A stretch of 23,471 bases of DNA from a virus: IMG/VR virus record IMGVR_UViG_3300050027_000072, positions 1 through 23,471 of that record; one strand, given 5' to 3'. Shown here one piece after another: positions 2,010 through 22,584 of the stretch. The notes beneath the pieces were generated by a model. It had not been told where the DNA came from and did not search any database. It saw only the letters and a program-made list of their open reading frames with translations. Numbering within the stretch: the stretch's first letter is position 1; each line of letters starts with the position of its first letter. The position numbers and the translations under genes are program-made.

Positions 2010-3008
2010 TCAGCACCCCTCCGACAATTCGGCGTTACACTCGTCCATCGCCCGCGGCTGCCGCTTACCAAGCCGGCGGGGTTCATAGTTCGCTGCCCGC
2101 CAGTCTTTCCAGGTCACACGCTTGTCGTAAGCGCCGACGACCCAACGCTGAAATCCAACGAGTTCCGCCGTGCGATGATACGGCATTGGATACGGAAGCG
2201 CTCCGAATTCGCGAAGCTTGCGCCGCCGGTAATCGCGATCTGCGTGCGTCTCGCCCGGCACATAGCCGATCAGCATGTAAACGAGCAGATGGCGTGGCCG
2301 CACTCCGTTGCGGCACAGCAACTCCAGTCCGGCGAAGAAGCGTGCTTCATCGCTCACGCTGTCCCATGCCGTGTACAGCCGCCGCTCGGCCATCCTCGAA
2401 TCGCGGTAATCGACGGAAGCGATCCCTTCGGCCTGCTCCGGTGTGAGAATGCGGCCGTTGATCCCCTGCGTAAAGCAGACCTTGAACCGGCCGGCGCGGA
2501 GCTCCGCGAGCCGTTCGCGCCACTCGGGATTGCCAAAGAAATCGTTATCGAGCAACACGATTTCACGTGGCGACGGCTGGCCGCGCCAGATTTCAGCGAT
2601 GGTGCCGTTCGCGCGGGCACGTCCTTCCTTCGCAGGCACTACGCAGAAAGGGCACCGCAGCCGGCAACCGCGCATGGCGAATCCGATGCTTTGCCGGTAA
2701 TCCGGGTAGATCGAGTAATCCATTGTGCCAGCAGTGATGCCGATGTCTTCGAGTCGGCGCATGAGGTCCCAGCCAGTGCCGCCAATGATTGCGCCGGGGT
2801 ACGAGTCGAGCACTTTGGACGCAAGGGGGCGACTGCGCTCGAAGATTGTGCTGGCGTACACGCGGTCGAACTGTTCATCGAACAGACCGCCGAAATCCGA
2901 CCCGTGGCGAAGCTCGACGTGATCCCCGCACTCGCGGTGGTGGGCCGCAATTCGCATGAGCGCGAGATTCGGCAGCTTGCCGTCGATTTGAATGAGGAGA
3001 ACATTCAC
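2010..3008 (-). CDS. Radical SAM protein of phage type
   Basis: This 332-residue protein carries the radical SAM cluster motif CxxxCxxC as C115-RLR-C119-PF-C122. It should bind a 4Fe-4S cluster and cleave S-adenosylmethionine. The N-terminal part (residues 1-100, MNVLLIQIDGKLPNLALMRI...) has the Rossmann-like flavour of B12-binding domains but lacks DxHxxG, so cobalamin binding is unlikely. Residues 140-270 hold alternating strand/helix segments expected of the partial TIM barrel (IVLLDNDFF, VCFTQGINGRIL, LLVYMLIGYVPGE). The start codon is GTG at 3008 with only a weak AGGG upstream. It follows the zinc-ribbon gene by 30 bases and overlaps no other gene. The substrate is unknown; DNA-base, nucleotide or tRNA modification are all possible. 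Confidence 0.85.
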   Translation of the reverse strand: MNVLLIQIDGKLPNLALMRIAAHHRECGDHVELRHGSDFGGLFDEQFDRVYASTIFERSRPLASKVLDSYPGAIIGGTGWDLMRRLEDIGITAGTMDYSIYPDYRQSIGFAMRGCRLRCPFCVVPAKEGRARANGTIAEIWRGQPSPREIVLLDNDFFGNPEWRERLAELRAGRFKVCFTQGINGRILTPEQAEGIASVDYRDSRMAERRLYTAWDSVSDEARFFAGLELLCRNGVRPRHLLVYMLIGYVPGETHADRDYRRRKLREFGALPYPMPYHRTAELVGFQRWVVGAYDKRVTWKDWRAANYEPRRLGKRQPRAMDECNAELSEGC

Positions 3009-3038
3009 AAGTGCGCCCTATCCACAGGGCCGAGCGTC

Positions 3039-3299
3039 CTAAACCTCTGCACCACAGGCGGGGCACTCGTCCACCGGTTCCACGTCACCGCACCCGTCCG
3101 GCCAATATGTGTGCTTGGTCCAGCGTCGAGGTCCCAGCCAACCGCACTGGTCGCACCAAACTGGTGTGGGCGACTCGTGTCGTCCCCACATCCACGCCAT
3201 CCGGCGCCGCCACGGGTTACGCGGCCACGCGGTTGCCCAGCGCCAGGCGCCCCAAGCGCCGGTCCAAGTAATGGCTATCAGAAACCGGAGCCAGTTCAT
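3039..3299 (-). CDS. Small Trp-rich protein with hydrophobic N-terminus and zinc-ribbon C-terminus
   Basis: An 86-residue protein whose ATG overlaps the stop of the HD hydrolase gene (ATGA), so it is probably translationally coupled. The first 25 residues (MNWLRFLIAITWTGAWGAW...) are hydrophobic and could insert in the membrane, followed by a basic segment (RNPWRRR). The C-terminal half has two CxxC pairs (WCDQCGW and ECPACG), the arrangement of a zinc ribbon, with a further lone Cys between them. Thirteen of 86 residues are tryptophan, which is striking. I do not recognise the family. It could be a membrane-anchored zinc protein or a soluble one with a Trp-rich core. Confidence 0.6.
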   Translation of the reverse strand: MNWLRFLIAITWTGAWGAWRWATAWPRNPWRRRMAWMWGRHESPTPVWCDQCGWLGPRRWTKHTYWPDGCGDVEPVDECPACGAEV

Positions 3300-4078
3300 T
3301 TCCGAACCAACTCCGCGCGCAGCGTGCGCCGCACAACCTCTTGCACCGCCTCAAGAGAGGGTCTGTGCTCTTGCGAGCGGTACAAGGCCTCGATGGCGCG
3401 TGCGATAGCTCCGGACAGCACAGCCGTCGTCTCTTCGGTATTGGGGAATGGATTGGCTCCAGCGTCCGGGGCATACGACACACAGTGCTGTGCCACTCGG
3501 AGTGCGCGCCGCAACCGTGCCTCATATAGCAGAGCCCAACGCCCATCCGCGTTGAGCGCTTCTTCCGCGCTGTATCCGTGCTCTACGAGGTAGACGTTGA
3601 GCGCGTCCTCTGCCTCCCGATCGTGCCGGAATCCCGTCTGTGTGTGCTCGTAGCCGCGACCAGCGCACCCGAGCACGCCCTCAGCGAGAGCCGCGCGGAA
3701 ATCGGCTTCCTTCACGGCCGCCAGGATCGCGGGGCCTGGTTCCGGCACGCCGAGCGTGGCATGGATTCGGGACTGTACCCTATCTTCGAGCGCACGTGCC
3801 TGGGCCGTCTTCATCGGGCGCGGCACGTCGGCAACGACAACCTCGGCGGCATCGTGGAGCAGGGCGTAAACCTCCAACCACGGATTGATCGGTTCGGCCT
3901 CGGGTTGCCTGTTCAGATTCTTGGGCATCAAATCTGCAACGAGCAGGCAATGCATGCCGATGGGCCAAAAGATTTCAGCAGCGCCGGAAAACCGCACGAG
4001 ACGCATGCTCTGCACGGCGATATCGCGAATCGACGGCGCGCCGAAGTCGCGCGTTACGTGAATACCACTGAACGTCAA
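3296..4078 (-). CDS. HD-domain phosphohydrolase (YfbR-like nucleotidase type)
   Basis: 260 residues from a TTG at 4078; GGAGGT lies eight bases upstream, which decides this start over the longer open frame reaching into the neighbouring gene. The beginning MTFSGIHVTRDFGAPSIRDI is characteristic of phage and bacterial HD hydrolases of the YfbR group. Metal-binding residues are visible: H43 (GMHCLLVADL), H75-D76 (LLHDAAEVVVADVP) and D126 (VKEADFRA). Such enzymes dephosphorylate (deoxy)nucleoside monophosphates. Phages use them to alter nucleotide pools. The C-terminal 90 residues (after about 170) are less typical and may be a lineage-specific extension. It lies 49 bases after the Gp37/Gp68-like gene in the same early operon. 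Confidence 0.8.
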   Translation of the reverse strand: MTFSGIHVTRDFGAPSIRDIAVQSMRLVRFSGAAEIFWPIGMHCLLVADLMPKNLNRQPEAEPINPWLEVYALLHDAAEVVVADVPRPMKTAQARALEDRVQSRIHATLGVPEPGPAILAAVKEADFRAALAEGVLGCAGRGYEHTQTGFRHDREAEDALNVYLVEHGYSAEEALNADGRWALLYEARLRRALRVAQHCVSYAPDAGANPFPNTEETTAVLSGAIARAIEALYRSQEHRPSLEAVQEVVRRTLRAELVRK

Positions 4079-4127
4079 AATGGGACACCTCCAGCCATCA
4101 ATTCCGTGCTCGTGAATGCTAGGACTG

Positions 4128-4952
4128 TTATGCCGCCTGGAATGGGCGCACCTGCGGCATATCGCGCCACTCGCGGTCGTCCAGCAAGTTGCCTCGAACC
4201 TGGCTACCCCAACCTTTGAAGAAGAACGGAATATCTTCCCTGACACACTGGTCGCGTACTGTCTGCGCCCACTGCCGGTCCATCGGCCGCGCGCCCGACC
4301 CGGACTCACCGCCGAGGATTAGCCAATCGATCGCGCGATGACGAAGGCCGCCGTATGCATTGGAAATCTCTATCCCGGTGGCTCCACAGACGTCGAGATC
4401 GACTGGTCCCAGCATTGGCTCCAAGCTGATCCCCCGGACGCTAACGCCGGGAACGCGTAGCAGTTCTGCGATGCGGTTGCTCGTCGCCGGTCCCGTGACT
4501 GTCGTCAGCAACCAGAAGTTCGGCGGGGCTGCATAGTTCTCGAAGAACCGCCTTGCCCGGCGCGGCCGTTTCGTGCAGAGGATCCAGATGTGGGACATTC
4601 GCGCCATCGGGCCCAGGTGCGGCGCCAGCCAGTCGAACGGCAGGGACTCCGTAAAGACGTCCGCGAGGTCGCCCAGGAAGATGGTTCGTGGGTAGCCGTT
4701 CAGCCAAGGCTTCCCTGGACGGTTTTTGCCTTTGAGATCGGACCAACGACACGCTTGCTCAATGCGCCCAGCGAAAAGTTCCGGCTTGTCAAAGAACGCC
4801 GGCCAGCCCGGAAGCCCCGCGTAGCGTCCAACCAGCGAAGCCGCGTAGCAGTGGCTCTCCTCGACGGCGGCGCGGTGCAACTCGCAGCCATCGCAACCGA
4901 CGACGGGGTTGATGGTCGAATCGCACCAGGGGATCTTGGTATCTCGTCCCAC
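4128..4952 (-). CDS. Phage Gp37/Gp68 family protein (DUF5131)
   Basis: A 274-residue protein starting at GTG 4952, which shares its first base with the TAG of the upstream gene. It carries the family's hallmark N-terminus: IPWCDSTINPVVGCDGC then HCYA, giving cysteines C20, C23 and C35. Further typical blocks are PWLNGYPRTIFLGDLADVF, WILCTKRPRRA (where other members read 'lTKRP.r'), VSVRGISLEPMLGPVDL, WLILGGESGSGARPM and a late IPFFFKGWG. The conserved Cys motif has led to suggestions that the family binds an iron-sulphur cluster, as radical SAM-like enzymes do. No reaction is established. Its pairing here with a real radical SAM protein and an HD nucleotidase suggests a shared modification or nucleotide-metabolism role, which is inference. 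Confidence 0.88.
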   Translation of the reverse strand: MGRDTKIPWCDSTINPVVGCDGCELHRAAVEESHCYAASLVGRYAGLPGWPAFFDKPELFAGRIEQACRWSDLKGKNRPGKPWLNGYPRTIFLGDLADVFTESLPFDWLAPHLGPMARMSHIWILCTKRPRRARRFFENYAAPPNFWLLTTVTGPATSNRIAELLRVPGVSVRGISLEPMLGPVDLDVCGATGIEISNAYGGLRHRAIDWLILGGESGSGARPMDRQWAQTVRDQCVREDIPFFFKGWGSQVRGNLLDDREWRDMPQVRPFQAA

Positions 4953-5368
4953 TACCTGCGAGCCTCCACTCCCAGGCCCTTCTTGGTGGCGTGTCGCCCG
5001 TCAGTATCGACACCGATCGCCCGGAGATCGATTGTATCTACGACGGCACCCAGGCGGCGCTCGATCCGGTGACGAAGTGCTTTGACGGACATGCTGAGTG
5101 CGTGCGCAGCGTCCGACAGGCACATTCGTTCCCCGTCGAGGATCACGAAGCGATTGGTAGATCGCTTCATTCGGCCGCGATCCAGGTCTTTGTCGAGTAA
5201 CTGCACGATGCGGAGCTCGTAAACGGCGATGACCTGGCGCAGTGCCACGATGCACTCGGACGGGTTCCAGTGCTGCCCGCTCTGACGTACTCCACACATC
5301 GTGCAAACTCTCCGGTCGACTGTGGCGTATTCAGTTGTGGGGGGAATATCAGTTGACGTGGATGTCAT
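4952..5368 (-). CDS. Small zinc-motif / HTH-like phage protein
   Basis: A 138-residue protein of unknown family. The ATG at 5368 follows the TAA of the upstream gene without a gap, and its TAG overlaps the next GTG start. Residues 22-25 form CTMC with another Cys at 39, a possible metal site. Residues about 31-65 (ALRQVIAVYELRIVQLL...) are predicted helical. Residues 72-108 (RFVILDGERMCLSDAAHALS... then LRHRIERRLG) match the pattern found in many phage HTH proteins, 'G...cLa.wA...gis..tl..R...G', suggesting DNA binding. It may be a regulator or accessory factor of the early operon. Confidence 0.6.
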   Translation of the reverse strand: MTSTSTDIPPTTEYATVDRRVCTMCGVRQSGQHWNPSECIVALRQVIAVYELRIVQLLDKDLDRGRMKRSTNRFVILDGERMCLSDAAHALSMSVKALRHRIERRLGAVVDTIDLRAIGVDTDGRHATKKGLGVEARR

Positions 5369-5626
5369 TTATTCGCACCCCGGATGCTTGGCTACCCGTC
5401 TGGCTTCGCCGCGGCCGATCAGTGCCTCTATAACGAGCGCAAACGAAGATTGCGGCCCACGGATCGTGGGCTCGTAGTAAGTTTGATCTTTGAATTTGAG
5501 ATCATAGATCCGAGACCACCGCTCTGTCTCACGACCTGGGTCGACACGCCGGGCTGCGTAGTACTTATGATTTGCTGCCCGGTGTCTGCATTCGGGACAA
5601 CGCCCGCAGGAGCACTTGATAAACAT
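5369..5626 (-). CDS. Small cysteine-cluster protein of unknown function
   Basis: 85 residues. The N-terminus MFIKCSCGRCPECRHR places four cysteines within ten residues (C5, C7, C10, C13), followed by H15 and H20, a likely zinc-binding head. The remainder is basic and charged without a recognisable domain. AAGGG lies upstream of the ATG, and its TAA abuts the next ATG. It is the first gene after the palindrome-rich control region, so it may head the left early operon. Function unknown. Confidence 0.6.
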   Translation of the reverse strand: MFIKCSCGRCPECRHRAANHKYYAARRVDPGRETERWSRIYDLKFKDQTYYEPTIRGPQSSFALVIEALIGRGEARRVAKHPGCE

Positions 5627-5764
5627 GGGTTTACCCTTGCTTTTGCGGGGGGCCTATGGCAGGATGCAGAAAGACATGGCCATCACGCCAGTAACGAGAT
5701 GCTGTGTTCGCGGGTCACAATTTCCTTAGCAGAGGTTGTGTGGCCCGCCTCTCCCGCAGTTTTC
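5627..5764. other. Non-coding leader upstream of the left early operon
   Basis: No convincing frame is present on either strand. On the minus strand the segment ends in the Shine-Dalgarno (AAGGG) of the gene starting at 5626. It probably holds the 5' untranslated leader of that operon, together with the palindrome block to its right. I found no riboswitch that I can name. Confidence 0.4.
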
Positions 5765-6025
5765 TTACTTACAAGATTGAAATTCCACGGACATGGTAAT
5801 ACTAGAACAGTGGTACTGACAAGGAATTTCGGATAGAAAATTCCTACATTTGGTGGAAGTTTTTGTCCGATTTTGACGCCAGGAGAATCTCCTAGAATAC
5901 TTACTCAGTAAGACGTCAAGGAGTACTGTCCTGGGAGCAAACCTCAGCTTACCTTCGTAAACCGTGATCCGCCGGAAGGGCGCCGGACCAGCGCGGCGAC
6001 CGATGCGGATCTCATTGGACTTCAT
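5765..6025 (-). CDS. Doubtful small ORF overlapping the control region
   Basis: An open frame of 86 codons whose ATG overlaps the stop of the zinc-ribbon gene (ATGA), normally good support. The first 35 codons (MKSNEIRIGRRAGPAPFRR...) use the GC-rich codons of the neighbourhood. The rest is AT-rich, low in preferred codons and runs straight through the dyads at 5822-5919. The likeliest reading is a short coupled gene whose 3' part has decayed or been replaced by regulatory DNA; it may not encode a functional protein at all. Confidence 0.3.
   Translation of the reverse strand: MKSNEIRIGRRAGPAPFRRITVYEGKLRFAPRTVLLDVLLSKYSRRFSWRQNRTKTSTKCRNFLSEIPCQYHCSSITMSVEFQSCK
5822..5845. promoter_or_regulatory. 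24-bp inverted repeat, candidate operator
   Basis: AGGAATTT and AAATTCCT form perfect 8-base arms around an 8-base spacer. The spacing is that of a dimeric repressor site. It lies in AT-richer DNA just upstream of the left early operon, where a lysogeny or early-gene regulator would act. No repressor gene is recognised in the window, so the cognate protein is unknown. Confidence 0.45.
5873..5919. promoter_or_regulatory. Symmetric promoter-like block with two nested palindromes
   Basis: TTGACG at 5873-5878 and its complement CGTCAA at 5914-5919 bracket two odd-length palindromes, AGGAGAATCTCCT (5881-5893) and CTTACTCAGTAAG (5900-5912). On the plus strand TTGACG is followed after exactly 17 bases by AATACT, a fair sigma-70 promoter. 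On the minus strand TTGACG has only poor -10 candidates (TATTCT at 14 bases). The palindromes overlap the promoter spacer and -10, the geometry of repression. Direction of the real transcript is uncertain because all solid genes nearby read leftward. Confidence 0.4.
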
Positions 6026-6183
6026 GCGGCTAATTCCTTAGGATCGAACCGAGCGCCGCATGCCGGACATTCGTACCACTCGTCGCGACAATGCTCGTAT
6101 GGGCCGCTGTCCAGCCCGTGTGTTTCGATGTAATCGACCCTGCGGAAGCGAAGACTCGCTTCACGGCACTCAGGACACGTCAT
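6022..6183 (-). CDS. Small zinc-ribbon protein
   Basis: A 53-residue protein starting at the ATG at 6183, inside the last codons of the primase-helicase gene (14-base overlap), with AAGAGG upstream. Two CxxC pairs (MTCPEC at residues 3-6 and ECPACG near residue 40) are separated by about 33 residues, the classic layout of a zinc ribbon. It resembles the many small zinc-ribbon proteins of phage early regions. No specific function can be assigned. Confidence 0.65.
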   Translation of the reverse strand: MTCPECREASLRFRRVDYIETHGLDSGPYEHCRDEWYECPACGARFDPKELAA

Positions 6184-8041
6184 ATGCGGCGCCTCTTGTG
6201 TCCTCCGCCCGATTTTCAAACTTCGTGAAGGAGTGGAGGAACACCAGATTCACTTTCCCAACCGGGCCGTTGCGCTGTTTCGCTACGATCAGTTCGGCCA
6301 GCCCACGAAACTCGGGCTGGTCGGGCTTATACAGCTCCTCGCGGAAAATGAACGAAACCAAGTCGGCGTCCTGCTCGACGCCGCCAGAATCCCTGAGGTC
6401 ACTGAGTTGTGGGCGATGGTTTCCCTGCCGATGTTCCGGCGCGCGACTGAGCTGAGAAAGCACTAGTAACGGCACACGGAATTCGCGGGCCATGATCTTC
6501 AAGCCTCGCGAAAGCGCCCCAACTTCTTGGTTCCGGTTCTCCCTTGTTGCGGAAGTCATCAGCTGCAGATAATCGATCACCACCAGGTCGACGCGGCCTT
6601 GTCGCTGGCCGAGCGCAAGCAGCTTCGCACGGATGCTTTTCAACGTCGCGATCGGTTGGTCATCGATGAAAATTGGCATCTCGCAGATATCTGCGAATGC
6701 CTGCTGCACTCGGCGACGGTCCTCCCTGTCGAGGCGGCCCGCCCGGAATTTCATTTGGTCGACGCGGCCCCTCGCACAAACGATTCTGCTCAACAAAGAC
6801 TCGCGCGACATCTCCAAGGAAAATACAGCGACCGTTTTTCGCTGCTCCGCGCAGTTATGGGCGATGTTCATTGCAAGCGCAGTCTTGCCCTGGGCCGGCC
6901 GCGCCGCCAGGATCACCAGTTCGCCCTGGTGAAGACCGAGCGTCATCTCGTCGAATCGGTAGTACCCGGTCGGCAGTCCCTTACTGCGCTGGGATGGATC
7001 GAGGAAGGCGTTGATTCCCCCGTCGAACCACTCCACAATTTCGACCGGATTCAATAGCCCGCGTTTTTCGATCTCCTCGGCATGGATTCTCCGGCGTGCC
7101 TCTTGGACGAGGAGTTCGATATCGCTTACGGAATTGCCCGCCTCGATGAATTCGGAAACGTCTTTCCCGGCAGGAACCGCTACGACCAGAACCTCGGCCG
7201 CCTTGCCAGCCAATTCGTGCTCGATCAATTTCGCGCGTTTGCGGCCTGGATCGTCGTTATCGGGGATGATGAAGACGTGCCGGCCGCACAACGATTCCGT
7301 ATATTCAGGCAGCCATTTCTGGGCCGCACCGCCGCTATTGGTCGTGGCAACCAGTCCGCCAGATTCGATCGTGCCGACGTCCTTCTCGCCCTCGACGAGG
7401 TAGACCGCATCGGCCTGCAGGACGGCAGGCAGGTGGTACAGTACGCGACGGACGTCGGGTAGTTCCTCGTCTCCAGGGACCGGCTCGTCCTTTACCGGGT
7501 ACCAATCGCCAGTCTGCGATTTTCGGTACGCGCCCTTCCGTATGCCCCACACCCACGCGCCATCGCTCGGGTGGCGCCGCCGCTGCCTGAATTCCTTCGA
7601 CTTGCCGTCACGCCCGGGTTCGATTCGCAGGACTTCATACAAGAGCTCCCCGTGCTCGTCCGCGTAGGGGTACGTCGCCACGATCTTTCCCTGGGGCTCC
7701 CTGAGCGGTTGCGGTCCGGCCTTCTGCTGCCGAGGGGGGCGCTGAGCGTCCGGATGACTTGGACCGAGCCCGGCCAGTTCCGAAACACGCTCCACTGCAT
7801 CCTTGAACGTTGCCAGCCCCTCGACTTTCATTACGAAATCGAAGACATCGCCTCCTGCCTGGCATCCGAAACAATGGAATAGCTGTTTGTCGAGCGTTAC
7901 TGTGAAGCTCGGGGTCCGCTCTTTGTGAAACGGACAGAGCCCGATCAGTTCATTCGCATTGCCGCCGCGCCGAAGCTCGGCGTACTGGCCGACTACCAGC
8001 GCAATATCCGCGGCCTTCTTCACGTGATCGGCATCGATCAC
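6170..8041 (-). CDS. Bifunctional DNA primase-helicase (CHC2 zinc finger, TOPRIM, DnaB-type helicase)
   Basis: 623 residues from GTG 8041, which overlaps the TGA of the upstream gene (GTGA) and follows GAGGAAG. The zinc finger uses C36, H39, C57 and C60 (CPFHKERTPSF ... HCFGC), as in DnaG-type primases. The TOPRIM domain shows LVEGEKD near 216-221 and IIPDNDDPGR near 258-267. The helicase half (from about 355) starts with TGYYRFDEMTLGLHQGELVI and carries Walker A ARPAQGKTA (380-388), Walker B VVIDYLQLM (487-495), SQLSR (529-533) and DSGGVEQDAD (551-560). The layout is that of T7 gp4-like fusion enzymes: synthesis of primers and unwinding at the element's replication fork. It lacks a separate DnaB N-terminal domain. 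Confidence 0.94.
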   Translation of the reverse strand: MIDADHVKKAADIALVVGQYAELRRGGNANELIGLCPFHKERTPSFTVTLDKQLFHCFGCQAGGDVFDFVMKVEGLATFKDAVERVSELAGLGPSHPDAQRPPRQQKAGPQPLREPQGKIVATYPYADEHGELLYEVLRIEPGRDGKSKEFRQRRRHPSDGAWVWGIRKGAYRKSQTGDWYPVKDEPVPGDEELPDVRRVLYHLPAVLQADAVYLVEGEKDVGTIESGGLVATTNSGGAAQKWLPEYTESLCGRHVFIIPDNDDPGRKRAKLIEHELAGKAAEVLVVAVPAGKDVSEFIEAGNSVSDIELLVQEARRRIHAEEIEKRGLLNPVEIVEWFDGGINAFLDPSQRSKGLPTGYYRFDEMTLGLHQGELVILAARPAQGKTALAMNIAHNCAEQRKTVAVFSLEMSRESLLSRIVCARGRVDQMKFRAGRLDREDRRRVQQAFADICEMPIFIDDQPIATLKSIRAKLLALGQRQGRVDLVVIDYLQLMTSATRENRNQEVGALSRGLKIMAREFRVPLLVLSQLSRAPEHRQGNHRPQLSDLRDSGGVEQDADLVSFIFREELYKPDQPEFRGLAELIVAKQRNGPVGKVNLVFLHSFTKFENRAEDTRGAAYDVS

Positions 8042-8838
8042 GCAACTTCCTCTTCCCACGGAGCGATCCATTCCGCGTTCGGATCCGTCCCGTCACCCGA
8101 CCGTTTGGAGCTTCGTTTTGCCGCCTTTGCTTCAGTACTCTCCGGGGGCTGATCCTTCCAGAGCCGCCCGGTGTGGCGATCATTTCCGGTGAGGAAAGCG
8201 TTTGGAGCCGGTATGTACTTTCCGTCCTCCTCGGCCCAAGCACGTGACGTCTTCCACCGGCGCAGACCAGCGAATATTTCCGGCAGCGTCTCCTCGGTGA
8301 TCTCACCGAGGGCGATCAGCGATATCCAAGATTGCAGTGCGGTGTCGACCCGTACCGCATTGGGATACTCCGAGATCCAATCGTGGAACGCCTCAACCAA
8401 ACGAGAGTCTGTATGGCCGCTTGGAGTCTGAGCCGGGGCTTGCGTTGCAGTGCTGTTCGACGCCAAGGGTGGCTGGACCAGCCGTGATTTCCGGGCGCGA
8501 GTCTCGGCCGACTTCTTCCCGCCGGTGCTGGACTTGCGGCTCCACTCTGCCTGTTTTCGCCGCTCTTCCAGAAGCCGGTCGTTGTAAAGCCGACCGCCCT
8601 CGGCGCGGAACTTCGCCCGGATCTTCTCCCGGCTGCGGCCATCCCAATCCTTTCCGAGCCGCGAGAGGACTGCGAGTTCTTCGTCGTTATCGGGCAGCCC
8701 GCAGTCCGGCTCCAGCCATTCGATGGCTAGCAGGCGGATATACCCGCCCTCCTCGGCGGGGGTCATGAGCAGGATGTCTTTTGAGGAGAGCCAGGAATCA
8801 GCGTAGAACTGAAACGCTGGCGACTTGTGGCGAGCCAT
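8038..8838 (-). CDS. DUF1376-domain phage replication protein
   Basis: 266 residues from ATG 8838, which shares a base with the TAA of the RusA gene (TAATG). The N-terminus (KSPAFQFYADSWLSSKDILL then MTPAEEGGYIRLL and LPDNDEELAVLSRLG) is the DUF1376 signature seen in phage replication-initiation proteins. The middle (about 110-165) is a basic, low-complexity linker. The C-terminal block (FHDWISEYPN ... ALQSWISL ... WAEEDGKYIPAPNAFLTGN) is the conserved end of many such proteins, probably involved in origin or helicase recruitment. Its position directly before the primase-helicase supports a role as initiator or helicase loader; that is inference. Confidence 0.82.
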   Translation of the reverse strand: MARHKSPAFQFYADSWLSSKDILLMTPAEEGGYIRLLAIEWLEPDCGLPDNDEELAVLSRLGKDWDGRSREKIRAKFRAEGGRLYNDRLLEERRKQAEWSRKSSTGGKKSAETRARKSRLVQPPLASNSTATQAPAQTPSGHTDSRLVEAFHDWISEYPNAVRVDTALQSWISLIALGEITEETLPEIFAGLRRWKTSRAWAEEDGKYIPAPNAFLTGNDRHTGRLWKDQPPESTEAKAAKRSSKRSGDGTDPNAEWIAPWEEEVA

Positions 8839-10141: not shown

Positions 10142-10708
10142 CTAGAAGGGCACGTCCTGGTCTGTGGGAACGTAGTCACCGTCTGGCGGCGCGGCGGCCG
10201 GCTGTGCGGCGGATGCGCGCGGGGCGGGAGTAGCCGGCGCGTGCATGGCCTTGAGTGCTTTGCCGAAGAGGTTATCGAGATCCCGCAGTTTCTTCGGTTC
10301 CAGGGCCTTCACTTCGAGGCTCCCGCCGCCGTGCCGGGCAATTCCCCACCGTTCGCGCTTGCCGCCCTCCTGATCGTCTTCGTGTGCGCACCACATATCC
10401 ACATCCAGGCCGCGGAAGTCGTGAAAGCCGGGTGTGTTCGGGTCCAGTTCCCTGAAGGCCGAGCCCTTGAATCCGAGAATCTTCAGGTCTTCGAGGAAAT
10501 ACTTGATCGTTTTGTCGGTGATGGCGCGGAAGTGGGTCCGCTCATACTGCGCCGGCGCCGGGATATAGCGCGTCGGGTCGGAGGGATCAACTTTGCCGAG
10601 CACCGTGAATTGGAGAACGAACTGGGGCGTGCCGGTCTTGGCCTCGCCGAGGGCCTGGCTGGTCACCTTGCAGGCGTACCGGCCAACTTCGTAGAACGGC
10701 TTAGCCAT
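10142..10708 (-). CDS. Putative phage single-stranded DNA-binding protein
   Basis: 188 residues from ATG 10708 with GGAGG upstream; it overlaps the ATPase gene by 8 bases. The core (FYEVGRYACKVTSQALGEA, then PQFVLQFTVLGKV) has the strand-rich look of an OB-fold, similar to phage DUF669-type proteins. Residues about 155-180 are an Ala/Pro-rich linker, and the chain ends in DQDVPF, closely matching the acidic C-terminal tip of bacterial SSB (DDDIPF) that recruits partner proteins. Position between a Sak4-like ATPase and the replication genes fits. The OB-fold assignment is inference; the tip is plainly visible. Confidence 0.65.
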   Translation of the reverse strand: MAKPFYEVGRYACKVTSQALGEAKTGTPQFVLQFTVLGKVDPSDPTRYIPAPAQYERTHFRAITDKTIKYFLEDLKILGFKGSAFRELDPNTPGFHDFRGLDVDMWCAHEDDQEGGKRERWGIARHGGGSLEVKALEPKKLRDLDNLFGKALKAMHAPATPAPRASAAQPAAAPPDGDYVPTDQDVPF

Positions 10709-11591
10709 TCGCCGCCTCCCGGCCCTGCTTTACGGCCGCCATGAAATTCGCCCACGCTTCGGCGGCGTTTGATCCCATATCGACTTCCGCCGGCAACCCC
10801 AAGCGGTTCTTGGCGTCGTAGGATGCGTGGCGTTCCGTGAAGAGCATACGATGATTCCCGCCCGCACCCTTGCCGCGGGCGGCGCCGGTTTTCTTGTTCT
10901 CCTGAACCGCCGTCAGCGTCACCTCGAAGTTGCCGAAGAGAACGACGTCGGCCCATTTATGCGTGAGGCCCCACGTCTTGTCGTGCATGTCCGGCGTATA
11001 GCGGTCATAGTCGGCGCCCTCGGGGTTCTTGAACGGCTTCACTTTCGTGTGGCACAGCGCGACAATCGCCATTCTCTTTTCGGCGCGCAGCCGGTCGAGA
11101 GCATTGAGGAACTTGCGCCATTCCGCGAGGGATACCTCGAATCCCCGCATGTATCCCATGAAGCCGCGCTCGCCCCAGTCGTTGTTGAAATCACGCTCGC
11201 AAACGTACTCGTGGCAGAGACGTTCGGCGCCGTTGACCGTATCCAGGGCCAGCGTGCGGTACGGATGATCTTCGACGGTCAATGTCTCGATGGCCCCCAG
11301 GAGGTCATCCCAGGTCTGCGATTCGGGGAAGTGTGGGACTTCCGGCAGGCGGCCGGAATCGATCAGGGTTTCCAGGCCAGTCTCACCTTTGGTTTCGATG
11401 AATACGGGCTTGACCGTCTGTGCCGCGAAGGACGTCTTACCCCATCCCTCCACCGCATGCAGGACCGTGCGGTTCGGCAGCCCGCTACCCTTGCTGCTGA
11501 TCGCAGCCAGGGAGGGGTGGTTGCTCGTCGTGACTGGCGCCGCCTGCCGCGAGCTCGGTGTTCGCGGAGTTGCTTGCGCTGCTGGTGTCAT
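10701..11591 (-). CDS. Sak4-like AAA ATPase (phage recombination)
   Basis: 296 residues. The ATG at 11591 is preferred over TTG 11597 because AAGGAG lies nine bases ahead of it. Walker A is VEGWGKTS (residues 47-54) and Walker B is YRTLALDTVNG with D117. Later blocks (MAIVALCHTKVKPF, WADVVLF, RMLFTERHASYDAKNRLGLP) are those of the phage AAA_24/Sak4 group. These ATPases act with SSB in single-strand annealing recombination. The first 35 residues are Ser/Thr/Ala-rich and probably disordered. The first 107 bases overlap the end of the nuclease gene in another frame. Confidence 0.83.
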   Translation of the reverse strand: MTPAAQATPRTPSSRQAAPVTTSNHPSLAAISSKGSGLPNRTVLHAVEGWGKTSFAAQTVKPVFIETKGETGLETLIDSGRLPEVPHFPESQTWDDLLGAIETLTVEDHPYRTLALDTVNGAERLCHEYVCERDFNNDWGERGFMGYMRGFEVSLAEWRKFLNALDRLRAEKRMAIVALCHTKVKPFKNPEGADYDRYTPDMHDKTWGLTHKWADVVLFGNFEVTLTAVQENKKTGAARGKGAGGNHRMLFTERHASYDAKNRLGLPAEVDMGSNAAEAWANFMAAVKQGREAANG

Positions 11592-12639
11592 CGTCAATTA
11601 CTCCTTTCTGTGAAGCCAAGAACCACGCCTCCAGCGCCGCATGCCAGAGGTTTCCGAAGTACAACGCATCGCGCTCCTCTTCGTCCTGCCGTTCGATCCC
11701 CAGTTCGTAGTCGTAGAAGTGCTTTCGCCGGCAGGTTTGAAAACATCGAATCCGGCTGTTGGTGAGGACATTGCGGCCGTCGCCCTCGATCCCCGGAAGT
11801 TCCGTATGAACGCACGGCTTTCGCCGCCAATTGTCCGAATCGGGTGCATCGTGCCCCGAGCAGATCCCCAGGAACTTGCAGGGACCGCCATACAACATGC
11901 AAGCGCCGGAGTTCCGCGCGTGACGACCGGTATTGCGGGCGTGCAGGATCTCCTGCCCGTGTTCCCACAGTTCGACGGCGTATTCATGCAACTCGGCGTC
12001 GAGGCGCGGAATAGATCGCCGTTGGAAGTACCACTCCGGCCGCGCCAGGGTACAGTCGTGCGCCAGGCGCGCTTCGTACATCTTCAAGGTCTCGCGCGGC
12101 TTCTCGACATTGAGCGCCAGGATCGATTCGTCAGCGAGGCGGCGGCCGAAGTACTCGTGCGTCACCGCGGCGCTCCTGGCTTCGGCCTTCGTGAGCAGCT
12201 TCGGGCTAATCGCAGGCTTCCGAACGACATCCCAAACCGCGTCATCCGCTTTCCGGGCGTTCAGCCACTCCAGCAGCATGTAATGGCTCGGCTGGCCCTC
12301 CACGATGAGCTGCCGCCAGTACGGCGAGTTTGGATCGCTGATGTCTTCGGAAGTCGTCTTGTGATCCATCAGCACGACACGATCGCGAAAGGCTGCGCTT
12401 AGGTCGATTTTGCCCGCGACGGTAAAAGATCGACTCTTTCTGCCCGTCTCCGGATTCCAGAGGTCCGATTGGACCACCCGTTCCACCGCGACCGCTAGAT
12501 ACTCGGCATCGGCCCAGCGCGCGTGGTAGCCAGCCAGGAGGCCCCGGCACTTCGCAGCCATGATCGCGCGGGATTCGTCTGGCGCTTGCCGCACGAACGC
12601 ATCCACTGCGGAGAGTGCCGCCTCAAGCCGTCTTGGCAT
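11485..12639 (-). CDS. PD-(D/E)XK nuclease with motifs in permuted order
   Basis: 384 residues from ATG 12639, with AAGGAG five bases upstream. Nuclease core residues appear first: D79 (VAGKIDL), D92-H-K94 (LMDHKTT), Q116 and Y120 (GQPSHY). Three cysteines follow (C247, C254, C260), then C299 and C303 in SRIRCFQTCRRKHFYDYELG, and H333 in FGNLWHAALEAW. In Cas4/AddB/RecB-like nucleases the CPRKFY and GxxxH blocks come before the D/DxK core, so here the N-terminal part of the fold sits at the C-terminus. The final 40 residues are low-complexity and overlap the ATPase gene. Likely role: 5'-3' resection for recombination, with an iron-sulphur cluster held by the cysteines. Confidence 0.82.
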   Translation of the reverse strand: MPRRLEAALSAVDAFVRQAPDESRAIMAAKCRGLLAGYHARWADAEYLAVAVERVVQSDLWNPETGRKSRSFTVAGKIDLSAAFRDRVVLMDHKTTSEDISDPNSPYWRQLIVEGQPSHYMLLEWLNARKADDAVWDVVRKPAISPKLLTKAEARSAAVTHEYFGRRLADESILALNVEKPRETLKMYEARLAHDCTLARPEWYFQRRSIPRLDAELHEYAVELWEHGQEILHARNTGRHARNSGACMLYGGPCKFLGICSGHDAPDSDNWRRKPCVHTELPGIEGDGRNVLTNSRIRCFQTCRRKHFYDYELGIERQDEEERDALYFGNLWHAALEAWFLASQKGVIDDDTSSASNSANTELAAGGASHDEQPPLPGCDQQQG

Positions 12640-12877
12640 GATTCTCCTTCGTGCCCTCTTCCGCGCACCAGCCATTTGCGGACGCGCCGTACCAAAACTC
12701 TGCCGTCCTCATCGCATGCTCCAGGAATGGCGAAGCAAAATCCCTCCTTCGTCCGCCAGCCGCGCGCGATCCGGCGAACATCAGCCAGCGATCGCGGTCG
12801 CGCACAAGCCACACGCGGGTGCCGCAGCAGGTTGCAGTAACGCAGACCGCCTCAGAAGGAATCTGCGGTCCGTTCAT
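12623..12877 (-). CDS. Hypothetical 84-residue protein
   Basis: The ATG at 12877 overlaps the stop of the membrane-protein gene (ATGA), and its end overlaps the nuclease start by 17 bases, so it belongs to the chain of coupled genes. It has cysteines at residues 12, 17, 18 and near 70, and a central RVWLVRDRDRWLMFAG strand pair. I do not recognise the family and assign no function. Confidence 0.5.
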   Translation of the reverse strand: MNGPQIPSEAVCVTATCCGTRVWLVRDRDRWLMFAGSRAAGGRRRDFASPFLEHAMRTAEFWYGASANGWCAEEGTKENHAKTA

Positions 12878-18431: not shown

Positions 18432-21400
18432 TTAGATAAACGAAGGACTGCTTGGTTGCTTCGGCAAGGGCAACGGCCATCCGTACAGGCACAGGTGGTC
18501 GTAAGCCCAAAACTTGATCAGTGGAACTCCCGTCCGCTGCGCAGCCTGAAACTCGCGCGCCCACGGCCAGGCCGGGTTGTACCATCCCTCCAGATACCGG
18601 CAATGTGCGCGATCCCAGGAGAGGACCGTAAACGGGTATCCGGCGCACGCCTGCGCCTCGTCGAGATTGAAGTCGATCCCGGCGTACTGGAATCCTTCGC
18701 AGAGGAACGTGTCGAAGCCGGAGCCAGCCCGCGCCTGCCACGCCGGAGGCAGGTTCACGTAACGGAGCAACCGGCACGCGGTCGGATCGTTCACGTCAAG
18801 CGGCCAGAGCAGTTCGAACACCGCCGCAGGCACCTGCGACAGCACCGCCGCCTGCACCCCTGCTACGTAATTGCCGAGTCGCCCCCGCAGGAAGTTCGCG
18901 TCCGCGTACCCGTTGATGCTTGGGTCGTCATTAGCCGTGCGGAACGTGGCCAGCGGGCGGCCAAGGCCGGCGAGCGCTGCCGCTGCCGTGTCGACATCAT
19001 AGAACGCCATCCCGCTGCCGCCCGCCTCGACGATGTACCACCACAGCACCTCGCCGAACTGGAGCCGGGGCTGGAGTCCAGCCGTCGCCATCAGCCCAGC
19101 CATCTCCGCGTACACCGATGCCATGTAGTTCTCGACCGGCGTGCCGAACGCCGACATGGAGCTATTCAGCCCGCCGAAGCCGGTCGCGGTCGTGGCGGGC
19201 GTCCCGTCCTGGTATCGCTGAATCCACACCGCGCCGCCCGAGGGATCGTCGGGCGGGTTGACCAACTCCTGCGAGAAGGACACCACCACGCCGATTCCGG
19301 CCGCCTTGAGCGCCGCGAAGTAATCGGCGTGCCAGTCGCGGATCGCACGGTTGAGGGGCTGGCTGGCTGCTGGGTCGATGACCCACGTCGGCGCGACGCT
19401 GTTGGTCTGGAGGTCGGGCGACGTGGTAAACGTCTGGCCGCTTACCACGTAGGTGGTGCCGTTCGAGACGGTGATCGTGCCCGCCGCGGAATTGGTCTGC
19501 GTCACGAGACTGTACGTCCAGTTGCTCCCCGTGGATCGACACGTGATCGTGAGCGTCGCGCCGTTCGCTGCGGCCCATACGCCGACTAGCGTCGCGTTGA
19601 TGAAGAACGCCATGTGCTGCGCGATGGTCTCCGGCGTATCGGCGGCAAAGACGGTCTTGCCGATGGCGGTGCCCCCGGTAATCTGGCCGTTCGAATAGGT
19701 GCCGCCGATGTTGACCCAGACCACCTCCTGCGAGGCCCAGGAGCTGCCGAACGTGATCGTGGCACTCGGATAATTGCCGCCCGAAGCCTTGCGCTGGTTC
19801 CACCAGAACACGCCGCAGTAATGGTCGATCTCGCCGACGAGGCCGAGCTTCTGGAGGTTCCAGATCAACCGTTGTGGAGAGAGCTTGTAGGTGTTGTCCG
19901 TGTCATAGTCGGTGGCTAGGCCCACGTCCGTCCGGGTCTCCGGAGCGTCGGGCACGTCCGTGAGGACCGCGCACTCCACGAAGTCGAAGTAGAAGTACCA
20001 CCCCTGGCTGCTGGCGTTCTTGTTGCCGGTCATCGAGAAAACCACCGTGTGGTTGCCCGCCGCGACGTTCTGGAACATGCGCCGCCGCACCAGCGTGCCC
20101 GAGCCGTAGCAGTCGAGTTGCACCGGGTTGCCACCGTCGAGCGTGGCCTGCACGATGCCGCAGTTCGCGTCCAGCCACGTCCCGAGGTAGATATCGTGCG
20201 TGGATTGGCAATGCGTCTCGATGGTGAGGGTGCGCGTCTCGTACTGGCTGTACGCCGACCGGATCGCCCGGCCCATGCTCCAGTACGCCGACACCTTTGG
20301 ATCGGCGAGCGACGGGTCCTCCCAATAACCCGCCCGCGTCACCCACGGGTCGTCCTCTTCCAGCCGCAGGGAGCCAGGCCCGGCGACCTTGAGCGGGCGC
20401 ACGCCGTTGGGGTCGGTGACCGTCCAGTTCGTGACGTTGACGCTCCATTCGGTCGGCGTATAGGCGGCGCTATTCGAGAGCGCGGGCGCGAACGTAAGCC
20501 ACGCCTTCGTGACGTCCGTCCAGCCCAGCTTCCCGAAGTCGATGGTGATGTGCCACTTCACGTTGTCCGACGATCCGCCGCCAAGTTGGAGCGTGCTGGG
20601 CGAGAAGTACAGATTCGAGTCGGTGTGCAGCTCGTACATCGACACCGCGTTGCCGTCCGCGCCGGGTGCTGCGGTGATCGTGAGTTGGTTGCCGTTGGCG
20701 ACCGCCGAAAGCGACACTGGCCCGTGCTGCGTCCAGTCCGTCTGGTTGATCTGTGTGGCGAGATTCGTGGTCACGTCCGACGCGGAGAAGCCCACGAGCG
20801 TCGCGGGCGCGGAACCGTCCGAGCTGGATACGGTGACCGGACCCTGTATGCCACTCCGGAGCGTGATCGTAATGTCGTTGGTGCTGCCATCCGCGCTCGC
20901 GGTGGCGGCGCAGTTGGGGTCGTTGGCCGCGATCTGTGCCGCGATGTTGCTGGCGATCTGCGCCGCTGTGAGGCTGTCCTGGTTGCAGGAATAGACCGCG
21001 CTCCCGATAGTGACAGAGTGGGCGTAATCGCTCAAAGTCGCCGGGCCGGAACCGTCCGAACTCGATACCTGGACGGGGCCGGAGACGCCACTTCGCAGGG
21101 ACACGATCACGCCGTTGGCCTGCGTGCCGCCCACCGTGGCGGTGCAGTTCGGGTCGTTGGCCGCGATCTGGCTCACGATGTTCGTCGCGATCTGCACGCT
21201 GTTGAGGCTGCCCTGATCGCAGGAGTACTTCGTCGTTCCGACCTGCACCCAATGCACATAGTCGCTGAGGGTCACCGGGCCAGAGCCGTCCGAACTCGAC
21301 ACCTGGATCGGCCCGGAGACGCCACTCTTGAGCGTCATCGTAATGTCGTTCGTATTGCCGTCCACACCCGCCGTGGCCGTGCAGTTCGGGTCTGCGGCGT

Positions 21401-22403
21401 TGATCTGCCCGGCCAGCGCCTGCGCGATTTGTGCGCTGTTCAGCCCGTCCTCGGCGATCTGATACTTGTTCGAGCCGATCTGCACCCAATGGACGTACAT
21501 GCTCAGGGTCGCGGAAGCGGAGCCATCGGAACTGGAGACGACCAGATCATTGATCGGGATAAGCGTTTTGAGGACAACGGTGATCTCGTTTCCGTACGCA
21601 CCACCCACCGTGGCGGCGCAGTACGGATCGCTCGCGTTGATCTGCGCCGCGATGTTCTGCGCGATCTGCCCGCTGTTGAGGCCGTCCTCCTGAACGCCAT
21701 AGATGTGGTTCCAGCCGTGCGCCTGCGTCTGGATCTGGACATAGTGCGTATAGTTCGCGTTGCCTTGCCACCACATCGCCTGGACGCAGGACTCGTGGTC
21801 ACCCTGCCACCACATCGACTGCACGCCTGAGGTGGCGGTGCTCTGCCACCACATATCCTGCTCGCAGGAGTTGCTCGCGGATTCCCAGAAGATCGACTGG
21901 ACGCAGGAGCCGCCACTCCCGGAGGAGACGACGTAATCGAACGCGAGGTTCTGATACCAGAGTGTCACCTCATCGCCCGCCACCGGCGTCCCCACGTTGA
22001 GCGTGAACATACCTGACGCGCCAGTGCGGCCAGAGGGCGGCGTGGCGAGATCGAGGAGCGAGTGCTGGAGCAGGTTGCCGCTCTCGTCATAGGAGTTGAT
22101 GTACGCCCAATCAAGCCACGGCCAGCGCAGGGACTCGAACGCCTGGATGCCCTGAAACTCGATGTCGAAATCGAGCTTCAGGCCGGTGATGTTGCCATCC
22201 GGCAGGTACGAGAATCTCGGGTGGGCGAAGGGATCGTCTTTCTGGAACAGCAGCAGGACCGCGAAATCGCCCTGGTCGCGGAAGACACCGGAGACGTTGA
22301 ACCCGGTATCCGAGCCGCCCCACAGTGCAGCCGCCGCGCCAAAGGAGTCGAAGCCCTGGAGGCTCATGGTCCGGTAAGGCTGGAATTTGTAGATCGGGTC
22401 CAT
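18432..22403 (-). CDS. Giant tail-fibre / host-recognition-like protein with two repeat systems
   Basis: About 1323 residues. The start is uncertain: ATG 22403, GTG 22481 or ATG 22367 lack a clear Shine-Dalgarno. An N-terminal strand-rich domain (MSLQGFDSFGAAAALWGG ...) is followed by a Gly-rich hinge, four 13-residue Trp repeats, and four repeats of 78-83 residues plus a partial one. Next come beta domains (LTIETHCQSTHDIYLGTWLD; a later domain with ADTPETIAQHMAFFINATLV of the same type as the repeats). The C-terminal 300 residues look like an alpha/beta barrel (AAGIGVVVSFSQEL, PRLQFGEVLWWYIV, AVFELLWPLDV, AGYPFTVLSWDRAH), possibly a glycan-degrading domain. It precedes the endolysin and probably recognises the host surface. 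Confidence 0.72.
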   Translation of the reverse strand: MDPIYKFQPYRTMSLQGFDSFGAAAALWGGSDTGFNVSGVFRDQGDFAVLLLFQKDDPFAHPRFSYLPDGNITGLKLDFDIEFQGIQAFESLRWPWLDWAYINSYDESGNLLQHSLLDLATPPSGRTGASGMFTLNVGTPVAGDEVTLWYQNLAFDYVVSSGSGGSCVQSIFWESASNSCEQDMWWQSTATSGVQSMWWQGDHESCVQAMWWQGNANYTHYVQIQTQAHGWNHIYGVQEDGLNSGQIAQNIAAQINASDPYCAATVGGAYGNEITVVLKTLIPINDLVVSSSDGSASATLSMYVHWVQIGSNKYQIAEDGLNSAQIAQALAGQINAADPNCTATAGVDGNTNDITMTLKSGVSGPIQVSSSDGSGPVTLSDYVHWVQVGTTKYSCDQGSLNSVQIATNIVSQIAANDPNCTATVGGTQANGVIVSLRSGVSGPVQVSSSDGSGPATLSDYAHSVTIGSAVYSCNQDSLTAAQIASNIAAQIAANDPNCAATASADGSTNDITITLRSGIQGPVTVSSSDGSAPATLVGFSASDVTTNLATQINQTDWTQHGPVSLSAVANGNQLTITAAPGADGNAVSMYELHTDSNLYFSPSTLQLGGGSSDNVKWHITIDFGKLGWTDVTKAWLTFAPALSNSAAYTPTEWSVNVTNWTVTDPNGVRPLKVAGPGSLRLEEDDPWVTRAGYWEDPSLADPKVSAYWSMGRAIRSAYSQYETRTLTIETHCQSTHDIYLGTWLDANCGIVQATLDGGNPVQLDCYGSGTLVRRRMFQNVAAGNHTVVFSMTGNKNASSQGWYFYFDFVECAVLTDVPDAPETRTDVGLATDYDTDNTYKLSPQRLIWNLQKLGLVGEIDHYCGVFWWNQRKASGGNYPSATITFGSSWASQEVVWVNIGGTYSNGQITGGTAIGKTVFAADTPETIAQHMAFFINATLVGVWAAANGATLTITCRSTGSNWTYSLVTQTNSAAGTITVSNGTTYVVSGQTFTTSPDLQTNSVAPTWVIDPAASQPLNRAIRDWHADYFAALKAAGIGVVVSFSQELVNPPDDPSGGAVWIQRYQDGTPATTATGFGGLNSSMSAFGTPVENYMASVYAEMAGLMATAGLQPRLQFGEVLWWYIVEAGGSGMAFYDVDTAAAALAGLGRPLATFRTANDDPSINGYADANFLRGRLGNYVAGVQAAVLSQVPAAVFELLWPLDVNDPTACRLLRYVNLPPAWQARAGSGFDTFLCEGFQYAGIDFNLDEAQACAGYPFTVLSWDRAHCRYLEGWYNPAWPWAREFQAAQRTGVPLIKFWAYDHLCLYGWPLPLPKQPSSPSFI
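20790..21746 (-). repeat. Four tandem 78-83-residue protein repeats (about 237 bp each)
   Basis: Units lie at 21498-21746, 21261-21497, 21027-21260 and 20790-21026. Each starts with a Y-x-H/V-x-V strand, then an A-Q-I-A helix, a DPNC or DPYC motif, and ends with VSSSDGS.xxTL. The middle units share long near-identical stretches at DNA level, for example around the SSSDGS codons, pointing to recent duplication or recombination. A fifth, shortened copy follows to about 20580. Each unit keeps one cysteine, so inter-unit or inter-chain disulphides are possible. Confidence 0.9.
21753..21908 (-). repeat. Four exact-length 39-bp repeats encoding S-C-x-Q-x-M-W-W-Q units
   Basis: Units at 21753-21791, 21792-21830, 21831-21869 and 21870-21908 encode 13 residues each: SCVQAMWWQGNAN, SGVQSMWWQGDHE, SCEQDMWWQSTAT and SCVQSIFWESASN. 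They follow directly on a Ser/Gly hinge and precede the long repeats without a gap. Seven Trp and three Cys in 52 residues are exceptional. They may be a sugar- or lipid-binding stalk, or a crosslinked collar. Confidence 0.92.
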
Positions 22404-22584
22404 CGCTGCGGAAGAGGTGGATTTCTGAGGCGGCGTTAGCCACGAGCGGTCAGTTGCACGCGTCGGCGACTTTGCGTCCACGTGGCGTACCAGGGCCTCT
22501 GCTGGGCACCTACCGGGCTGATTCTACAACGCTTAATGTGCTAGTGTAAGATTCTTGACGTAGAACATCATGTTTTGACTAGGC
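22404..22584. promoter_or_regulatory. Divergent intergenic region between late genes and HEPN gene
   Basis: This is the only place where transcription diverges. It is AT-richer than its surroundings from about 22515. TTGACG occurs at 22555 on the plus strand, but no good -10 lies at 17 bases. On the minus strand TACACT near 22542 could be a -10 with a weak -35. Both promoters are suggested by position rather than sequence. No terminator is visible. Confidence 0.35.

Follow-up and report, generated by a model that had tools for sequence, protein, structure and literature searches.

The locus described here raises the question whether a phage nuclease whose conserved blocks stand in a rotated order is a true circular permutant or the remains of two genes read as one. 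PD-(D/E)XK nucleases form one of the most diverse superfamilies of enzymes, and members of their RecB/Cas4/AddB branch are normally recognised by a fixed order of motifs. In a preliminary description of the IMG/VR virus record IMGVR_UViG_3300050027_000072 (23,471 bases, analysed over its whole length and called the window in the following), one gene product was noticed to carry its nuclease core in front and the Cys- and His-containing block at the back, and was read as circularly permuted.

Gene and motif order of the window nuclease

The nuclease gene lies where it had been placed, at 11485-12639, with the addition that it is encoded on the minus strand, its ATG being located at 12639 and its stop codon ending at 11485. 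The strong Shine-Dalgarno sequence reported for this start is present (AAGGAG, 12649-12644, 4 bases from the ATG), and a second in-frame ATG was found 12 codons further upstream. All residues named before sit at their positions in the translated protein, revealing the order D79, D92xK94, Q116xxxY120, C247/C254/C260, CxRKxxY (C303), and GxxxH (H333). The coordinates of these features are given in Table 1.

Table 1. Features of the permuted nuclease gene and of the genes next to it in the window.
Feature	Position	Strand	Remarks and basis
RecB/Cas4-type PD-(D/E)XK exonuclease, very likely circularly permuted	11485..12639	-	384 aa (including stop); translation, Pfam, 37 homologues
Shine-Dalgarno AAGGAG	12644..12649	-	4 bases before ATG; sequence
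Residues 27-273, nuclease core and Cys triad (canonical profile positions 90-322)	11821..12561	-	Profile built from 18 canonical phage exonucleases
D79 (motif II)	12403..12405	-	Invariant 37/37
D92-H-K94 (motif III, DxK)	12358..12366	-	Invariant 37/37; D+13, K+2 spacing as in MGME1
Q116xxxY120 (QxxxY motif)	12280..12294	-	Invariant 37/37
C247, C254, C260; C-terminal in canonical proteins (PMC4176176)	11860..11901	-	Invariant 37/37
Residues 261-288, segment joining old C-terminus to old N-terminus	11776..11859	-	Alignment
Residues 289-344, N-terminal block of canonical proteins (CxRKxxY with C303; GxxxH with H333; canonical profile 10-63)	11608..11775	-	Pfam and canonical profile
C303, fourth predicted Fe-S cysteine	11731..11733	-	37/37
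H333, motif Ia histidine (GxxxH)	11641..11643	-	37/37
Residues 346-384, tail; missing or different in many homologues	11488..11604	-	Alignment; low model confidence from residue 349
Sak4-like AAA_24 ATPase, predicted functional partner	10701..11597	-	PF13479, phrog_124, synteny
Homologue of Tunturi protein annotated as single-strand DNA binding protein	10142..10708	-	Synteny

For residue counts, we used a set of 37 diverse viral homologues (identities down to about 30%), two of them from cultured phages of Acidobacteriota. The motif Ia His (H333), the motif II D (D79), the DxK of motif III (D92/K94), and the QxxxY motif (Q116/Y120) are present in all of them, the spacing of D79, D92, and K94 (13 and 2) being the same as that of D238, D251, and K253 in MGME1. 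Instead of the canonical order Ia-II-III-IV, all 37 proteins display II-III-IV-Cys3-Cys1-Ia, and the four-Cys iron-staple pattern is likewise complete and rotated, with C303 in the CxRKxxY block and C247, C254, and C260 in front of it. From the cysteine pair C299/C303 of the preliminary description, only C303 is a Cys throughout, while C299 is a Cys in just 18 of the 37 proteins; hence, the conserved pattern consists of 3+1 cysteines, as in Cas4. The distance from C260 to C303 amounts to 42-49 residues in 37/37 permuted homologues, and within the joining segment W271, H278, and E280 are invariant in a homologue set of 23 members (set A2).

Homologues and conservation

The two cultured phages of Tunturiibacter psychrotolerans (Acidobacteriota), Tunturi_1 and Tunturi_2, encode homologues with 55-57% identity over 88-89% of the query (tblastn), and scans of IMG/VR uncovered several dozen distinct viral loci, with identities to the respective query down to 29%. 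In all strong IMG/VR matches, the core stands at the front and the H-block, i.e., the block with the GxxxH motif, at the end of one open frame, while the few weak matches L036, L037, L100, and L101 are canonical relatives or fragments of such relatives. No bacterial copies were found in two tblastn scans of GTDB representatives (E <= 1e-3), and no relative of the permuted nuclease was found on plasmids. A survey of homologues had been proposed as a check of the motif order, and it returned the rotated order in 37/37, with D79, D92, K94, Q116, Y120, C247, C254, C260, C303, and H333 invariant in the whole set.

That these 37 homologues keep both order and residues refutes a frameshift as well as a second nuclease truncated in this one case. 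Frameshift, assembly error, and truncated second gene were rejected also in view of the many independent contigs and the two cultured phage genomes that share the arrangement. An internal start for a separate C-terminal protein was rejected as well, with no conserved start codon at the place in question (GTC CTC in the window; V/I/T-L/I in the alignment). The claim that no separate CPRKFY block lies upstream held in a six-frame search, which revealed neither a copy of the H-block upstream nor a copy of the core downstream in any fetched permuted locus.

Values of dN/dS are low in both halves (0.05-0.11 for the core, 0.06-0.19 for the H-block), i.e., both are under purifying selection. From a single sequence, one would naturally take the H-block for a gene of its own, for the beginning of a truncated second nuclease, or for a frameshift product, in each case without a part in the first enzyme. 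We consider this extremely improbable, given the single unbroken frame in every permuted locus found, the selection acting on the H-block, the lack of a conserved internal start, and fetched loci that hold no other H-block copy to supply the essential His or the fourth Cys. Hardly more credible is a permuted but catalytically dead relic, against which stand the catalytic residues kept in 37/37 and the low dN/dS. Since all key residues are kept, the rewired enzyme very probably works, as judged from the sequence.

The tail of the nuclease and the beginning of the Sak4-like gene share 113 bases, read in different frames (window 11485-11597). Few synonymous changes were found in the tail between close relatives, so the overlap with the Sak4-like gene probably constrains it.

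Profile matches of the two halves

In a Pfam scan of the whole protein, PF12705 (PDDEXK_1) reached a total score of 56.2 bits against a cut-off of 22, in two stretches that are out of order, the best of which aligns residues 293-350 with profile positions 3-55. Scanned apart, the C-terminal 102 residues cover profile positions 3-58 and residues 1-282 cover positions 59-207; these ranges are almost exactly complementary. The exonuclease family phrog_1218 (E 2.6e-22 to the window protein) is split likewise. All 23 members of set A2 matched PF12705 (E <= 0.01), while the Cas4 family models PF01930/PF06023 were unmatched in this set, the only other match being a weak one to Dna2.

We also built a profile of 341 positions from 18 phage exonucleases with canonical order. 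It matches 37/37 permuted proteins in a rotated manner, the N-terminal part corresponding to about positions 90-320 and the C-terminal part to about 7-64. As a control, leave-one-out profiles matched 18/18 canonical proteins in normal order. Both profiles bear out that the two halves complement each other, and together with the split phrog_1218 match they demonstrate that the succession of core, three cysteines, CxRKxxY, and GxxxH is real. In the permuted homologue L007, an insertion divides the match of the first part into two. Cys-rich, zinc-knuckle-like insertions were seen in the permuted L007 (CDTCHGLG..CSC; 4932-6248) and in the canonical L039 of Caulobacter phage Kuura (CEACGGTGG..CPEC; 2944-4095).

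Predicted structure

With an alignment of 23 sequences as input, AlphaFold2 predicted the window protein with a mean pLDDT of 84.3 and a pTM of 0.80. The C-terminal block (residues 290-345) mostly shows pLDDT values of 75-95 and ends in a helix of residues 324-350 carrying H333, while values below 50 are confined to the tail (349-384). In this confident model, the C-terminal block is part of one compact fold. The same block might instead complete the active site of a neighbouring subunit in a domain-swapped oligomer: completion in cis and in trans look alike in sequence, the joining segment of 42-49 residues could reach a neighbour, and the model taken alone is compatible with a domain-swapped dimer. 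Nevertheless, we regard such a swap as rather improbable, since the confident prediction for the monomer is a single compact body and the 3+1 cysteines require the block to lie close to the triad of their own subunit, unless the cluster is shared.

Foldseek searches against the PDB ranked MGME1, RecE, Cas4 SSO0001, AddAB, AdnAB, and RecBCD high, with low TM-scores and short or badly superposed sequential alignments, as expected where a sequential aligner meets a permutation. A sequence profile search of the PDB yielded chance antibody matches only. In BFVD, the phage protein A0A6J5NSY1 was aligned in sequence order over the full length (358 columns; TM 0.71/0.79, 24% identity) and, judging from the model comparison, is probably another permuted member. 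The reading as a circular permutation is thus supported by the order and residues of the homologues, by complementary profiles, and by a confident single predicted fold.

Evolutionary origin

In a tree based on the canonical profile columns of permuted and canonical proteins, the permuted proteins group in one clade (FastTree 0.877, UFBoot 100), whose stem is long (1.3 substitutions per site), and a set of canonical phage exonucleases is sister to this clade (support 77). The canonical motif order is common to RecB, AddAB, Cas4, and MGME1, and the rotated order is therefore the derived one. The simplest route to it would be a tandem duplication whose outer pieces were then lost, which we put forward as a conjecture; no tandem-duplicate intermediate was found, and a six-frame search of the permuted loci turned up neither block a second time.

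A chimera, in which a nuclease lost its N-terminal part and acquired, by fusion, the first 60 residues of another nuclease related to it, would draw on the observation that a model of the H-block scores best with MW202777, P69, and Maco7 and one of the core with L100, L036, and L101. Yet these score differences are small and the block has only about 55 residues; moreover, all candidates belong to one nuclease family and the topology at the end is the same either way. We therefore hold such a fusion to be unlikely.

Very likely, the window protein is a natural circular permutant of a phage RecB/Cas4-like (PF12705) exonuclease, with the old termini joined near a predicted Fe-S cluster, that probably resects DNA ends for Sak4. 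In such a permutant, the old N-terminal piece with the Cys block and the GxxxH-histidine helix would now follow the old C-terminus, the joint would be placed between the Cys triad and the fourth Cys, and the new termini would lie in the loop that follows the GxxxH helix (H333). Joining the termini at the cluster would be structurally easy, because a 3+1 Fe-S cluster would already hold both chain ends together, and the chain should then refold into an ordinary active site. The metal ligands of MGME1 are His180, Asp238, and Asp251 plus the following carbonyl, with Lys253 nearby (PMC6237815). Correspondingly, H333, D79, D92, and the carbonyl after D92 may bind Mg/Mn, K94 may assist the attacking water, and Q116/Y120 may position the DNA.

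Gene neighbourhood

A Sak4-like AAA_24 ATPase is encoded directly downstream of the nuclease in 40/42 distinct permuted loci, sometimes with one small gene in between (Tunturi); the other two contigs end less than 100 bases from the nuclease, so that all 40 loci with room have it. The protein annotated as SSB in the Tunturi phages often comes after the ATPase in permuted loci. Canonical PF12705 exonucleases adjoin an ATPase of this kind in Brevundimonas, Serratia, Pseudomonas, Gordonia, Streptomyces, Rhodococcus, Nocardia, and Weizmannia phages. With a Sak4-like ATPase adjoining both, the permuted enzyme takes the place of the exonuclease in an exonuclease-Sak4-SSB recombination module. There is also a weak match between the ATPase of the window and the later part of phrog_8097, which is labelled an exonuclease family, and this match hints at exonuclease-ATPase fusions. 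Among the ORFs scanned in the window, there were no cas1 or cas2 genes.

In phage HK620, Sak4 anneals ssDNA with its SSB (PMC5928155). The permuted nuclease would feed Sak4: it would resect DNA ends, which the adjacent Sak4-like ATPase and SSB would then anneal and recombine during replication of the phage DNA. Metal and Fe-S binding, nuclease activity, polarity, and the partnership with Sak4 are all features we infer.

Several other genes were observed in these genomes. The window encodes a 633-aa protein fusing a CHC2 zinc finger, a Toprim-like, and a DnaB-type primase-helicase part (6170-8071), a DUF5131 protein (4128-4952), a weakly radical-SAM-like protein (2010-3008), and a possibly tail-associated protein of 1349 aa with repeated segments (HWVQIGSNKY.. 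/ VQSMWWQ..) and a match to phrog_6040 (18432-22481), all on the minus strand. In Tunturi_2, a phosphoadenosine phosphosulfate reductase gene is located just upstream of the permuted nuclease (L008, 5124-5867).

Significance and comparison with known systems

Taken together, these proteins probably represent an old, stable phage clade of permuted RecB/Cas4-type Fe-S nucleases, previously undescribed, which arose once, joined its termini at the Fe-S staple, opened new ones beside the catalytic-histidine helix, and serves as the resection enzyme of the exonuclease-Sak4-SSB module. No report of a permuted nuclease of this type was found in the open-access literature searched, though an earlier mention in the reviews of Steczkiewicz 2012 or Kinch 2005 is possible; neither Kosinski 2005 nor Knizewski 2007 mentions a permutation. 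With all key residues kept in a rotated chain, evolution appears to have reopened and rejoined a common nuclease fold, and the predicted Fe-S cysteines, which would already hold both termini, suggest why this reopening was possible. The permutation indicates places at which nucleases might be split or fused, and it calls for caution, since annotation that relies on ordered domain matches or on sequential fold comparison can break such enzymes up or score them too low. The small protein of the cultured phages Tunturi_1/2 lends itself to direct tests of foldability, of what the Fe-S staple does, and of completion in cis or in trans.

The closest known systems are the canonical phage proteins annotated as Cas4 family exonuclease or RecB-like PF12705 proteins (MW202777, Strzyga, Serbin, Cleo, Zuko, Youna2, Apiary, P69), which share the same nuclease motifs and, in most cases, the Cys pattern; like the permuted enzyme, they lie beside a Sak4/RecA-like ATPase, but their Cys/GxxxH block comes first and that of the permuted enzyme last. 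CRISPR Cas4 (PF01930/DUF83, PF06023/DUF911) has the 3+1 four-cysteine pattern, H, D, D/E-x-K, and QhxxY in common with it (PMC4176176); in contrast, the permuted protein is not matched by the Cas4 Pfam models, has rotated motifs, is longer, and is encoded beside a Sak4-like ATPase. The nuclease domains of AddB, AdnB, AddA, and RecB as well as MGME1, which has an equal D-D-K spacing (PMC6237815), are its fold matches in the PDB, yet display the canonical order, while the permuted protein is rotated and carries no helicase domain. The same kind of event, with the motif order rotated and the residues kept, has been described on different folds for permuted DNA methyltransferases (PMC2430557) and for the cpRAS/YRG GTPases (PMC1829167).
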